In this document: positions 2,676 to 8,909 of the stretch, piece after piece
Numbering within the stretch: position 1 is the first letter of the stretch
How the letters are laid out: the number at the start of each line of letters is the position of its first letter
Origin: Deltaproteobacteria bacterium
GTDB lineage: Bacteria > Myxococcota > Myxococcia > Myxococcales > Anaeromyxobacteraceae
Assembly: GCA_016214955.1 (NCBI GenBank)
Contig: JACRMN010000012.1
Coordinates: forward strand, 186,001-250,000
Reading direction: 5' to 3'
DNA length: 64,000 nucleotides
Made by a program: the position numbers and the translations under genes
Notes under the pieces: model-generated
Seen by the model: the letters and a program-made list of their open reading frames with translations, nothing else
The model's database searches: none
Told to the model about the DNA's origin: nothing

Positions 2676-3230
2676 TTACACGCCGGCCCTCGCGGCCTGG
2701 GTCCGGCAGTGGCAGTCGAGGCAGGCGTGCCGGGCGCAGGCGCCGCAGGCCCGGCGCAGCCGCTCGCGGAGCGCCGCCCGGGCCCGGTGGAGCCGGACCG
2801 CGGCGTTGTTGGGCGTGATGCCCTCCTCGGCGGCGACCGCCGGGACCGGGGCCCCTTCCAGGTCCACCCGGCGCACCAGCCGGGCGTGGGCCGGCGACAG
2901 GGTCTCGACCACCTGGCCGACGCAGGCGCAGGCCGCCTCGCGGAGCTGCTCGGGCGGCAGGCCCAGCTCCTCCAGCGCCTCGTCCAGCTCCACCTCCTGC
3001 GGGCCCCGGTGCCGGCGGCGGTGCAGGTCGGCGGCGGCGTTGCGGAGCACCTGGTAGAACCAGGCCTCGGCGCTCTCGCCGCTGCGCAGCGCCGCCGAGG
3101 GCTCGGAGGCGCGGGCGTAGGCGGCCTGGAGCAGCTCCTCGGCCTGGGCCTCGTCGCCGAGGCGGGAGCGGGCGAAGCGCAGGAAGGCCTCGCGCTTCCC
3201 GGCGAGCCGGGCCAGGGCCTCGCCGGTCAC
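2676..3230 (-). CDS. ECF sigma factor with Cys-rich C-terminal tail (CorE-like)
   Basis: A 184-residue sigma-70-family ECF factor. A region-2 helix set (EAWFYQVLRNAAADLHRR, about 55-75) and a region-4 HTH (ITPNNAAVRLHRARAALR, about 135-155) are visible. The C-terminus adds a tail with five Cys and a His (CGAC, HACLDCHC), about residues 161-175. Myxococcus CorE is a known ECF factor whose Cys-rich tail senses copper directly, and the context (copper ATPase downstream, cupredoxin upstream) supports the same job here. No anti-sigma gene is adjacent. Starts at GTG, four bases after the stop of the tiny upstream gene. The CorE assignment is by domain layout, not alignment. Confidence 0.8.
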   Translation of the reverse strand: MTGEALARLAGKREAFLRFARSRLGDEAQAEELLQAAYARASEPSAALRSGESAEAWFYQVLRNAAADLHRRRHRGPQEVELDEALEELGLPPEQLREAACACVGQVVETLSPAHARLVRRVDLEGAPVPAVAAEEGITPNNAAVRLHRARAALRERLRRACGACARHACLDCHCRTQAARAGV

Positions 3231-3231
3231 G

Positions 3232-3336
3232 TCAGCCGGCCCTCCCCAGCGCGCCGGCCACCGCGGCAGCGGCCAGCAGGACCAGGAGCACGATCCAGCG
3301 CGCCCGCCGCGGCGCTCCCTTGCAGCAGTCGTCCAT
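3232..3336 (-). CDS. 34-aa membrane peptide with N-terminal Cys pair
   Basis: A 34-codon gene with a strong ribosome site (AGGAGGTGAGC before ATG). It encodes MDDCCKG, a short basic stretch, then one hydrophobic helix rich in V, L and A. The DDCC head could bind a thiophilic metal. It sits immediately upstream of the ECF sigma gene and is probably translationally linked to it (1 base between its stop codon and the sigma GTG). Function is unknown; a role as metal ligand or small regulator of the sigma factor is a guess from context. Confidence 0.6.
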   Translation of the reverse strand: MDDCCKGAPRRARWIVLLVLLAAAAVAGALGRAG

Positions 3337-3429: not shown

Positions 3430-3786
3430 TCAGTCGACGGCGATCTCCCCGGCGATCATGTCCATGGCGCAGGCGAAGCGGAGCTTGCCGGACTGCTTCG
3501 GCGTCAGCTCCACCACCACGGGCTTGTCGAGCGGCAGCTTCTGGTTCACCCCGGCCTCCCGGATGACGATCTCGGTGGCGCAGGTCCGCTCGGTCTTCCG
3601 CGTCACCACCAGGCGGAGCTTCTGCCCCTTCCTGGCGCGGATGCGGGAGGGGACGAACCCCTCGCCGGTCACCGCGATCTCCACGGTGGTGGGCGGCGCC
3701 TCCGGGGCCGCGAGCGCGGGCGTGGAGAAGAGGAGGAGGGCGGCGGCTGCGACGAGGCTCCTGGGCATGTTGGTGTTCTCCGGCAT
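3430..3786 (-). CDS. Secreted cupredoxin-domain protein
   Basis: A 118-residue (or 112-residue) periplasmic protein with a signal peptide ending near STPALAA. The mature part is a cupredoxin-like beta sandwich of the EfeO/plastocyanin-related type (EGFVPSRIRARKGQKLRLVV near its start, CAMDMIAGEIAV at the end), plus a further Cys in ERTCATEIV. The final C-x-M-D-M stretch suggests a Cys/Met copper site. Start taken at 3786 (GGGAGG four bases upstream); 3768 is an alternative. A sigma-54 element and a palindromic enhancer-like site lie upstream, so it probably belongs to the copper regulon of the NtrC-type activator at 5863-7266. Confidence 0.82.
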   Translation of the reverse strand: MPENTNMPRSLVAAAALLLFSTPALAAPEAPPTTVEIAVTGEGFVPSRIRARKGQKLRLVVTRKTERTCATEIVIREAGVNQKLPLDKPVVVELTPKQSGKLRFACAMDMIAGEIAVD

Positions 3787-3912: not shown

Positions 3913-3929
3913 GTGACCGGATCGGTTAC
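3913..3929. promoter_or_regulatory. Palindromic enhancer-like site, copy 1
   Basis: GTGACCG-GAT-CGGTTAC is an inverted repeat with 7-base arms and one mismatch. The same 7-3-7 architecture recurs at 4335-4351 and 8819-8835, each time upstream of a sigma-54 element. It is probably the binding site of the NtrC-family regulator in this locus (inference). Confidence 0.6.
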
Positions 3930-3941
3930 GCGAAGCGGCCT

Positions 3942-4196
3942 CTAGCGGTTGCCGGGGCAGTGACAGGCCAGCCGGGCCTGCCGCGGTGCCGCTCCGTCCG
4001 GCGGATGCGCGGGCGCAGGGCGTTCGGCAGGCACCTGCGTGCCTCCCGGTGCACCGGCCACGGGGTGGCGGGCTGCGGCCGGCCGGCTGCGAGCCCGATC
4101 GAAGCGAGAGTCCACGTCGCCCGCCCGGGCTCGAACGGCAAGGCCCGAAGCAGCGAGCGCGAAGGCAGCGAAGAGCGGCAAGGACCGAGCGGTCAC
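3942..4196 (-). CDS. Small secreted peptide with C-terminal CxC (copy A)
   Basis: An 84-residue product starting at GTG with a textbook ribosome site (GGAGAAG seven bases upstream). A signal peptide of about 25 residues ends in RARA, followed by GDV, then a Pro/Ala/Arg/His-rich stretch, ending in CHCPGNR. The mature protein has only two cysteines, both in the final CxC. The divergent 61-aa gene at 4522 shares this plan (signal peptide, GDV, low-complexity spacer, CxC end), so the two look like diverged paralogues. I recognise no family. Promoter context predicts sigma-54-dependent, metal-responsive expression; copper or thiol-metal binding outside the cytoplasm is a reasonable guess. Confidence 0.68.
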   Translation of the reverse strand: MTARSLPLFAAFALAASGLAVRARAGDVDSRFDRARSRPAAARHPVAGAPGGTQVPAERPAPAHPPDGAAPRQARLACHCPGNR

Positions 4197-4246
4197 GGGA
4201 CTTCTCCTGCAGCCCGAGGGCTGCGTGGGGGGTCGAGTGCAGGTGG

Positions 4247-4262
4247 AGCAGGGCGCGTGCCA
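4247..4262 (-). promoter_or_regulatory. Sigma-54 promoter of CxC peptide A
   Basis: On the minus strand TGGCACGCGCCCTGCT matches the -24/-12 consensus at all conserved positions except one T of TTGC, with GG-N10-GC spacing. It lies about 50 bases upstream of the GTG at 4196. The palindrome at 4335-4351 begins 73 bases upstream. Confidence 0.72.
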
Positions 4263-4334
4263 GCCGCCGCCGCCGTGGATCCCGCCGTGCAGGGCCCCTC
4301 GACGCGCGCTGGCGGTCGCCGGCGCGGTTCCACC

Positions 4335-4351
4335 GTGACCACGCCGGCCAC
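4335..4351. promoter_or_regulatory. Palindromic enhancer-like site, copy 2, shared by divergent promoters
   Basis: GTGACCA-CGC-CGGCCAC is a 12-of-14 match to the arms of the perfect copy at 8819. It lies almost exactly midway between two divergent sigma-54 elements: 72 bases from the one at 4262 and 74 from the one at 4426. One bound activator could serve both CxC-peptide genes. The rest of the 325-base gap 4197-4521 shows only these promoters. Confidence 0.55.
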
Positions 4352-4425
4352 GGTCCGGCGCGTCTCCCGGTGCGCGCCGCGCGCAAGCCCGCGCCGCCAC
4401 GGCCTGACGCCGCCGCTGCGCCGCG

Positions 4426-4441
4426 CGGCACCGGCGTTGCA
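4426..4441 (+). promoter_or_regulatory. Sigma-54 promoter of CxC peptide B
   Basis: CGGCACCGGCGTTGCA has the GG-N10-GC spacing and a perfect TTGCA -12 box. It predicts a leader of roughly 70 bases before the ATG at 4522. Confidence 0.72.
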
Positions 4442-4521
4442 CACTCCGCGGGCAGCCGGCGAGAAGAGCCGGCCGCCGGCGCGAGGGATCGCGCACCGGC
4501 ACCCACCGAAAGGAAGCCACC

Positions 4522-4707
4522 ATGTGGAAGACCGCCCTCGCCGCCACGCTGCTCGCCCTGTCCGCCGGAGCCGCCCTCGCAGGCGACGTCACCCCTTACG
4601 ACAAGGAGCTGGCAGCGCAGATGTCGTCCCCGAAGAAGGCGGCGCAGGATGCCGACCCGGCCCGGCCCGCCGCCGGGAAGGCCGGCGACTGCGCCTGCAA
4701 GCGCTGA
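4522..4707 (+). CDS. Small secreted peptide with C-terminal CxC (copy B)
   Basis: A 61-residue product with an AAGGAAG ribosome site. The signal peptide (MWKTALAATLLALSAG, cleavage after AALA) is followed by GDV, a Lys/Ala/Pro-rich spacer and the end DCACKR. The mature peptide would be about 40 residues with just the two CxC cysteines. It resembles the divergent 84-aa gene at 3942-4196 in layout though not in spacer sequence. Expression is predicted from the sigma-54 element at 4426. A secreted or periplasmic thiol-metal ligand is plausible; no known family was recognised. Confidence 0.75.
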   Translation: MWKTALAATLLALSAGAALAGDVTPYDKELAAQMSSPKKAAQDADPARPAAGKAGDCACKR

Positions 4708-4893: not shown

Positions 4894-5220
4894 CTACTTG
4901 CCCGACTCCCGCCGCGCCGGAGCCGGCGCCGCGGCCTGGACGGTGACGGCCTCCACCTGGCCGCCGACCTTCCGGGCATGCACCACGACACGGAGGCCCG
5001 GCTTCAGGTCCGCCGCCCTGGCTGCCTGCCCGGCCACGAAGATACGTGTGGCATGGGTCAGGGCGGCGCGGTGCTCCTTCCCTTGGACCCCGCGCACGGT
5101 GAGCTGACCGCCCTCGGCAGACATGACCACGCCGCGGAAGTCGGCCCCGCCCTCATGGGCGACCGCGATCGCGCTCCCCAGCAGCAGAGCGACTGCAGAG
5201 ACGAGAGCTGCTGACCTCAT
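4894..5220 (-). CDS. Secreted DUF5666-like small beta protein
   Basis: A 108-residue exported protein with a signal peptide (MRSAALVSAVALLLGSAIAVA). One compact domain follows, of the form FRGVVMSAEGGQLTVRG...ATRIFVAG...LKPGLRVVVHA, which resembles DUF5666/OB-like metal-resistance accessory domains. Its ATG overlaps the stop of the upstream cytochrome gene (ATGA), so the two are translationally coupled. They probably form the end of a kinase-regulator-cytochrome operon. The domain match is by eye; molecular function is unknown. Confidence 0.65.
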   Translation of the reverse strand: MRSAALVSAVALLLGSAIAVAHEGGADFRGVVMSAEGGQLTVRGVQGKEHRAALTHATRIFVAGQAARAADLKPGLRVVVHARKVGGQVEAVTVQAAAPAPARRESGK

Positions 5221-5858
5221 GGCGACACTTCCTTCCCCTTCCCGTGGTGCTCGTGGCCGCTCCGCGGCGCTGGCGTCGGGTCGTCGCCCTGGAGAAACTG
5301 CTCGTCCTCCTGCAGCTCCCGCCACTCGGCGGGGCTCCTGGGGTTGAGCTTCTCCATCTCCAGGATCTCCTCGGGCCCGAGCCTGGGCAGGTGGCGGATG
5401 AAGTGCACGAGGCCCCAGCTGGCCTCGGGAGGCCCGCCGCCCCAGCCCGGCATTCCGGTGAGCCGTACGCCGTTCTCGATGATGAAGAAGAGCTCCCCGT
5501 CGCTCAGCTCCTGGGTCGCGGGCAGCCGCATGTCCGGGGCGCGCGGATAGAGGCGTCTGCCCAGCGCGGTCGCGCCGCTCCCGTCGTTGGCGTGACAGCT
5601 GGCGCAGTGGTCGGCGTAGTGGGCCCGGGCCTCGGCGAGCACCCGCGGCGTCGGTGGAACGGGGTTGGACCGCAGCCGCTCCTCCGGGTCCATGGCGAAG
5701 CCGCGGACCATGCGCGCCAACCGGGCCTCGGTCGGCCCGGGGTCCGGGCGGGCGCTGAGCCCGCTGCGCCGGACGGCAAGGGCGCCGGCCAGGAGCCCCG
5801 CACCGAGAAGCAGCACGATGAGAGCGGTTCCAGCGCAGCAGGCGCGCCTCGCGGTCAT
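5217..5858 (-). CDS. Membrane-anchored mono-haem cytochrome c
   Basis: A 213-residue protein with an N-terminal hydrophobic helix (about 9-28), probably an uncleaved anchor or signal. A class I cytochrome c domain follows with the haem motif CASCH (about residues 88-92) and distal Met candidates in GMPGWGG. The C-terminus is charged and ends in HEHHGKGK, a possible metal-binding tail. It starts four bases after the stop of the sigma-54 activator gene and overlaps the DUF5666-like gene, giving a compact operon. A role in periplasmic electron transfer linked to metal stress is inferred from context only. Confidence 0.82.
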   Translation of the reverse strand: MTARRACCAGTALIVLLLGAGLLAGALAVRRSGLSARPDPGPTEARLARMVRGFAMDPEERLRSNPVPPTPRVLAEARAHYADHCASCHANDGSGATALGRRLYPRAPDMRLPATQELSDGELFFIIENGVRLTGMPGWGGGPPEASWGLVHFIRHLPRLGPEEILEMEKLNPRSPAEWRELQEDEQFLQGDDPTPAPRSGHEHHGKGKEVSP

Positions 5859-5862
5859 GGTC

Positions 5863-7262
<1,400 letters not shown>

Positions 7263-7266
<4 letters not shown>

Positions 7267-8818: not shown

Positions 8819-8835
8819 GTGACCGCGCCGGTCAC
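8819..8835. promoter_or_regulatory. Perfect palindrome between kinase and efflux genes, copy 3
   Basis: GTGACCG-CGC-CGGTCAC has perfect 7-base arms. On the plus side it lies 58 bases upstream of the sigma-54 element of the efflux operon. On the minus side it abuts a candidate -10 box (TACACT, 8841-8836) of the kinase-regulator operon, so the same site could activate the pump and repress the regulator genes. Confidence 0.65.
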
Positions 8836-8893: not shown

Positions 8894-8909
8894 TGGCATG
8901 GACCGTGCT
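8894..8909 (+). promoter_or_regulatory. Sigma-54 promoter of the CusCBA-type operon
   Basis: TGGCATGGACCGTGCT carries GG-N10-GC and five of six bases of the -24 box. Transcription would begin only a few bases before the ATG at 8922. The upstream ATG at 8898 lies inside the promoter, which argues against that start. Confidence 0.55.

Follow-up and report, generated by a model that had tools for sequence, protein, structure and literature searches.

What are two very short divergent open reading frames (ORFs) in the middle of a copper-gene locus for, and are both of them genes? The ORFs, of 84 and 61 amino acids (the 84-mer and the 61-mer), each combine a signal-like N-terminus with a CxC close to the C-terminus. 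The window, that is, the whole stretch of 64,000 nucleotides that was analysed, belongs to a genome of 5.3 Mb in 30 contigs (G000), and the comparison set consisted of 24 Anaeromyxobacteraceae genomes. The genes around the two ORFs are arranged as follows.

150-2669, minus: P-type ATPase with HMBD and YHS domains (domain scan)
2676-3230, minus: ECF sigma factor with a Cys-rich tail
3433-3786, minus: cupredoxin (PF13473, Pfam), placed in the same regulon with its own predicted promoter
3942-4196, minus: 84-aa ORF, GTG start, ending ACHCPGNR; predicted mature form GDVDSRF...
4522-4707, plus: 61-aa ORF, ATG start, ending DCACKR; predicted mature form GDVTPYDK...
4894-5217, minus: small secreted protein with a weak likeness to DUF5666, below the Pfam cut-off
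5217-5858, minus: cbb3-type cytochrome (PF13442, domain scan)
5863-7266, minus: NtrC-type sigma-54-dependent response regulator, CorR-like, the presumed activator
7263 to about 8810, minus: histidine kinase (HAMP, HisKA, HATPase_c), CorS-like, start codon uncertain
From 8898, plus: TolC, then CusB and CusA, named by inspection of ORF translations

Two further observations concern the ECF sigma factor. Its tail, CGACARHACLDCHC, has the spacing C-x2-C-x7-C-x-C, the same as in the copper sigma factor CorE. Directly upstream of its gene lies a 34-aa ORF (MDDCCKG..., 3234-3336, minus) with one hydrophobic segment, perhaps a further tiny copper-locus peptide.

The preliminary description of this DNA had placed the two ORFs, their sigma-54-like elements and a palindrome between them, and all were confirmed in place. 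Its claim of one shared enhancer in a copper-gene setting also held, with the palindrome at 4335 situated between two sigma-54-like promoters at distances of exactly 72 and 74 bp. The control elements of the locus are listed below.

3913-3929, minus: second enhancer-like site, GTAACCGATCCGGTCAC, one mismatch, before the cupredoxin
4200-4207, minus: ribosome-binding-like site of the 84-mer, GGAGAAGT, read from the sequence
4247-4262, minus: sigma-54-like 16-mer of the 84-mer, TGGCACGCGCCCTGCT
4335-4351: enhancer-like palindrome common to both peptides, GTGACCACGCCGGCCAC, within ACCGTG-N11-CACGGT
4426-4441, plus: sigma-54-like 16-mer of the 61-mer, CGGCACCGGCGTTGCA
4510-4516, plus: ribosome-binding-like site of the 61-mer, AAGGAAG, read from the sequence
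8819-8835: third enhancer-like site, perfect, between the kinase and TolC

Whether such an arrangement could arise by chance was assessed with 4000 dinucleotide-preserving shuffles of each promoter-plus-gene stretch. A shuffle was counted when it contained an ORF of 40-130 aa with a ribosome site, a signal-like N-terminus and a start 45-109 bases from the -24 element. This occurred in 1/4000 shuffles of the 84-mer stretch and 0/4000 of the 61-mer stretch, and no shuffle of either (0/4000 and 0/4000) also had a CxC in the last 12 residues. A ribosome site and a signal-like N-terminus at promoter distance are thus very unlikely to coincide by chance. Signal peptides were judged by a crude script and by eye, and the GDV at both mature N-termini presupposes cleavage after ARA and ALA, placed in the same way.

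Codon composition separates the two ORFs. The GC content of the 61-mer at codon positions 1, 2 and 3 (0.69/0.61/0.90) is normal for coding sequence here, whereas that of the 84-mer (0.84/0.71/0.75) is atypical, so that the case for the 84-mer draws on its promoter, ribosome site, signal-like N-terminus and CxC and not on codon bias. Coding evidence is good for the 61-mer and weaker for the 84-mer. The 61-mer might accordingly be the only gene of the pair, and the 84-mer a frame that arose by chance downstream of a functional or defunct promoter, as its third-position GC without any excess over position 1 would suggest. Against this, the 84-mer starts at a fitting distance behind a good sigma-54-like element and has a ribosome site, a signal-like N-terminus and a CxC at its end. 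None of its shuffles showed this combination, and we regard a chance frame as rather unlikely.

The 4335-4351 palindrome is of the GTGAC-N7-GTCAC type, with one mismatch to GTCAC in its right arm, and is repeated elsewhere in the locus. The cupredoxin is preceded by a sigma-54-like element, CGGCACGACTCCTGCT, as well as by the enhancer-like site at 3913-3929, and therefore seems to have its own promoter. The site at 8819 likewise separates divergent genes, which means that a position between divergent genes is not special to the peptides. For four of the five sigma-54-like elements in the window, the gap to the enhancer-like site is 72-74 bp; for the TolC element it is 58 bp. The palindrome is likely the enhancer of the whole locus, including the cupredoxin, kinase-regulator and TolC-CusBA operons. 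With a loose pattern, the window contains four matches against 1.03 expected, a number reached by 1/100 shuffles. A tighter pattern, devised after the sites were known, gives five matches against 0.25 expected (0/100 shuffles); the 8819 site is counted on both strands in both patterns.

This control anatomy extends to related genomes. A search with the cytochrome returned 18 matches in 16 of the 24 family genomes and gave access to the upstream regions of the relatives' copper genes, in which GTGAC-N7-GTCAC recurs, often 70-75 bp before the -24 element (about 52-85 bp across scans). A combined pattern of upstream activating site (UAS) and sigma-54 element found 28 sites in 17/24 family genomes and none when reversed, 15 of the 28 preceding cupredoxins by manual count. 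Across 195 genomes, the pattern with the correct spacer occurred 27 times in 20 genomes (reversed control, 1), namely 22 times in 15/24 family genomes and as five single sites in five genomes outside the family; a spacer one base longer was found in 0/195 genomes. A version with a shorter palindrome gap returned mostly coding noise and missed the window's own sites, and a relaxed enhancer pattern, with many matches within coding sequence, served only for choosing regions.

The same palindrome with identical spacing also stands ahead of type IV pilin-like genes in other taxa (21 among the 80 loci listed, L212-L281 included). The motif alone therefore does not mean copper, and was dropped as a marker of copper genes; copper is inferred from the setting. 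The pilin-associated palindrome may be a site of PilR type that shares the half-site, and pilus regulation was rejected for the peptide locus in view of its neighbouring genes.

Which regulator would act at these sites is suggested by the locus itself. In Myxococcus xanthus, CorSR controls copper genes with predicted sigma-54 promoters, according to part of PMC3707914. Identity between the window's regulator and its counterparts in four loci of a different genus of the order, probably Myxococcus, is 70-71%; in these loci the CopA-type ATPase and the cytochrome reach 65-67% and 49-52%. The palindrome precedes the CorS-like kinase gene in two of these four probable Myxococcus loci, the two whose stretch was fetched. 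Several features of a CorSR-type system were found together, including a CorR-related NtrC-type regulator beside copper genes, a domain make-up as in curA, and, for both peptide genes, a sigma-54-like promoter with the regulon's enhancer-like site. Control of the peptides by the CorR-like protein is a well-supported prediction from this arrangement.

Similar peptides in relatives were found through control sites and copper loci and not by sequence. Searches of the 24 family genomes with either peptide gave nothing convincing besides the peptides themselves; the best other E-values of two such searches were 0.007 and 0.002, amid hundreds of low-complexity matches. Plasmids had no match to the 61-mer, and neither peptide had a Pfam match (E 0.1) or an NCBIfam match over the cut-off. 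The second-ranked foreign match of the 61-mer (genome G022, E 0.025) was later recognised as one of the CxC peptides, situated among copper genes. When a script strictly demanded CxC in the last 15 residues, it found only the window's own peptides in 16 cytochrome-anchored regions. CxC peptides surfaced once the position of the CxC was relaxed and copper loci were read by promoter, giving 15 short signal-like CxC ORFs (the window's two included) in 11/24 family genomes and 5/6 genera.

G000: two
G018: two
G008, G009 and G022: one each
G014: two
G001, G002 and G007: one each, ending MACACTR or MACACMR
G006: one, ending VACGCAHGCAHHG
G010: two, one of 54 aa (mature SDASYDK..., ending ACGCQKHQS) and one ending ACGC

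The class proposed from these ORFs has a signal-like N-terminus, a length of at most about 120 aa, a CxC, an enhancer-like site and a sigma-54-like promoter. All of these traits are present in 12 of the 15, if the enhancer-like site may have one mismatch at most and the sigma-54-like score must be 13 or higher; one control element is weak in the G009 peptide, the G018 91-mer and the G010 120-mer. Copper genes adjoin 13/15 in the stretch read. Counted by genome, CxC ORFs with the same promoter anatomy occur in ten other family genomes and stand beside copper genes in eight of these; the 19-kb region fetched for G001 and for G002 had no match to the copper proteins of the window. For example, G009 and G010 each have one peptide directly after an RND-pump (cusA-type) gene, while the G007 peptide is followed on the same strand by a small secreted protein and then by a P-type ATPase with a His-rich N-terminus.

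These results modify the layout first proposed, a signal peptide, GDV, a spacer and a lone C-terminal CxC. The signal-like N-terminus, low-complexity body and CxC are common to all 15 ORFs, but exact GDV is present in only three (five have [GS]D[VA] where cleavage is predicted) and the CxC is near the C-terminus in eight, and the original definition was too narrow. In the same way, the expectation of homologues with the same layout near copper genes was borne out for the layout but not for homology by sequence. An alignment of 11 of the 15 had three invariant residues, an Ala where the signal region ends and both Cys of the CxC, cysteines that aligners tend to line up in any case, and the pairwise similarity of the compared peptides was not significant (E 3.2 and 18). 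Common descent is therefore putative, and ORFs of this type may have originated on several occasions. The idea of a new peptide family survives in that further signal-CxC ORFs share the promoter anatomy, although they are invisible to sequence similarity and were seen in one bacterial family only.

An association between CxC and the enhancer was also evident in numbers. Among small signal-like ORFs of the loci compared, 11/39 behind the enhancer had a CxC against 11/157 elsewhere (Fisher p 7e-4, an optimistic value because close homologues were unthinned). The 11 in the enhancer group include a cupredoxin whose N-terminal extension carries the CxC and omit the 84-mer, while the 11 in the background include one G014 peptide, whose locus end was clipped, and several CxC ORFs of copper loci. 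For the three closest peptides (G001, G002 and G007), dN/dS values of 0.49, 0.32 and 0.79, with 21-31 differences each, are compatible with weak constraint at most.

The distribution of the peptides is narrow. Thirteen of the 24 family genomes yielded no CxC peptide; some of their copper loci were read, and several of the assemblies are incomplete. Twenty cytochrome-anchored regions, drawn from four further families of the order, yielded no comparable short signal-CxC peptide, with the qualification that L347 and L356 matched the cytochrome alone and L346 is shorter than 4 kb. Three ORFs outside the family that passed the script were set aside, namely Met-rich CPC proteins in L352 and L355 and a poor ORF in L345. 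The first two, at 4734 in L352 and 4683 in L355 (probable Myxococcus copper loci), are Met-rich secreted proteins of 126-133 aa with a CPC.

Other small secreted proteins were encountered in these loci. Cysteine-free examples with TDEARA-type motifs occur behind the enhancer or adjoining CxC peptides (L074, L078 at about 9165, L143, L145 and L187). In L150 (9211, minus), an enhancer-like site precedes a small secreted protein with three TTGxW-type repeats, whose gene diverges from those of a sigma factor-ATPase pair. Some family cupredoxins bear CxC or CxxC in N-terminal extensions.

The reading we prefer, at a probability of about 0.5, is that the 61-mer and the 84-mer are small extracytoplasmic Cu(I)-thiolate peptides of a CorSR-type copper regulon, copper-induced and lineage-specific. 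Copper would activate the CorS-like kinase, and the phosphorylated CorR-like regulator would bind the 4335 palindrome and activate sigma-54 polymerase in both directions. The peptides would then leave the cytoplasm by the Sec route, have their signal peptides removed and remain unfolded in the periplasm or outside the cell, where the CxC dithiol would bind Cu(I) and either buffer it or hand it over to the regulon's cupredoxin and Cus-type efflux pump. Because a CxC disulfide is under strain and its cysteines are more readily kept in the reduced form, CxC would suit an oxidising compartment better than CxxC. Copper binding by the CxC is inferred from place, chemistry and precedent, the last comprising the CorE tail, the spacing in the ECF sigma factor tail and the CxC or CxxC of the cupredoxins. 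A broader and more tentative possibility, to which we give somewhat less than even odds, is that these ORFs form a fast-evolving class of secreted peptides in which the CxC is the only lastingly selected feature. They would buffer Cu(I) in the periplasm in an unfolded state, escape similarity searches and be traceable only by their CorR/sigma-54 sites, and a thiol tag of the same kind would also be carried on cupredoxins of the regulon.

Other functions have to be weighed against this. With a copper-sensing leader peptide like CutF or CruR, copper would be sensed while the nascent peptide is translated and exported, and the gene that follows would be controlled in cis. The peptides resemble such leaders in size, in their signal-like N-terminus, in carrying a cysteine motif and in lying among copper genes (PMC9973294 and PMC9426467, each in part). 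The 84-mer has the cupredoxin downstream on its own strand, and the G007 peptide is followed on its strand by a small secreted protein, then a P-type ATPase. However, the 61-mer is without a convincing same-strand gene before TolC at 8898, and the cupredoxin, about 155 bp beyond the 84-mer, has an enhancer-like site and sigma-54-like element of its own. Moreover, neither peptide has a PP in its last 15 residues, a criterion taken from part of PMC9973294, or a match to DUF2946 (Pfam, E 0.1). A leader of this type was rejected for the 61-mer and, less firmly, for the 84-mer, and is unlikely as an account of the peptides.

CxC dithiols can also act as small isomerase mimics. The peptides could in that case be redox helpers, small disulfide exchangers that repair envelope proteins misoxidised under copper stress, a role that the compartment and the regulon would fit. 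No link to a Dsb-type gene was found in the loci read, and the CxC and CxxC on family cupredoxins point to metal work and not to redox work, which leaves this role with little probability.

That the peptides are precursors of a modified, RiPP-type metal-binding peptide is very improbable: bufferin precursors do have Sec signal peptides, cysteines and a role in copper stress (PMC12452194, in part), but the locus contains no MNIO gene, the only PF05114 match in G000 (G000:C26:958970-959749) lies about 770 kb away, none was found in 7/11 CxC-peptide genomes (two of these 66% and 74% complete), and the peptides scanned had no Pfam match and no NCBIfam match over the cut-off. MNIO modification was rejected as a general explanation, and the earlier suggestion that the peptides are targets of further modification has no support.

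Should the copper-thiolate reading be true, these peptides would represent an unannotated layer of bacterial copper handling, made up of small unfolded thiol peptides under an enhancer-driven promoter, and the palindrome would supply a predicted enhancer for the CorSR regulon. It would also follow that fast-evolving small proteins can be found through their control sites rather than their sequence, and the defined peptide set would make the role of copper-induced tiny ORFs a testable question. A limited search of the open-access literature, with subscription literature mostly outside it, found no description of such peptides.

Several known systems nevertheless resemble this one in part. CutF of Rhodobacter and CruR (DUF2946) of Bordetella are likewise short, carry a cysteine motif and are linked to copper genes, and CutF is exported; as described in parts of PMC9973294 and PMC9426467, their C-termini bear proline-rich or RAPP stalling motifs and they act in cis on the gene that follows, whereas the peptides here are without PP near the end. 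Bufferins (MNIO-modified, DUF2282 and others), as far as the same part of PMC12452194 describes them, share the Sec signal peptide, the cysteines and copper stress, and differ from the peptides here, which have no neighbouring MNIO gene, fewer cysteines and no family match. By the sequence features compared, the predicted peptides are neither CutF/CruR leaders nor bufferins.

A precedent for the CxC itself is found in CorE, in which a C-terminal CxC is needed for proper copper control; the substitutions C192A and C194A, which affect this CxC, disturb it (PMC3107203, in part). The window's ECF sigma factor shares the cysteine spacing of CorE. Unlike a secreted peptide, the Cys-rich domain of CorE is a cytoplasmic sigma-factor domain with six cysteines, according to the same part of that paper. 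The closest parallel in regulation is provided by CorSR and curA of M. xanthus. The nine-gene curA table in PMC3707914 lists no CxC peptide, unlike the locus here, and sections 5-6 of that paper give no enhancer sequence for CorSR. In other respects the two systems are alike in what that part of PMC3707914 describes: both combine an NtrC-type regulator and a kinase with sigma-54-like promoters, and the PF13473 cupredoxin, the ATPase with YHS and the PF13442 cytochrome of the window all have their counterparts in curA.
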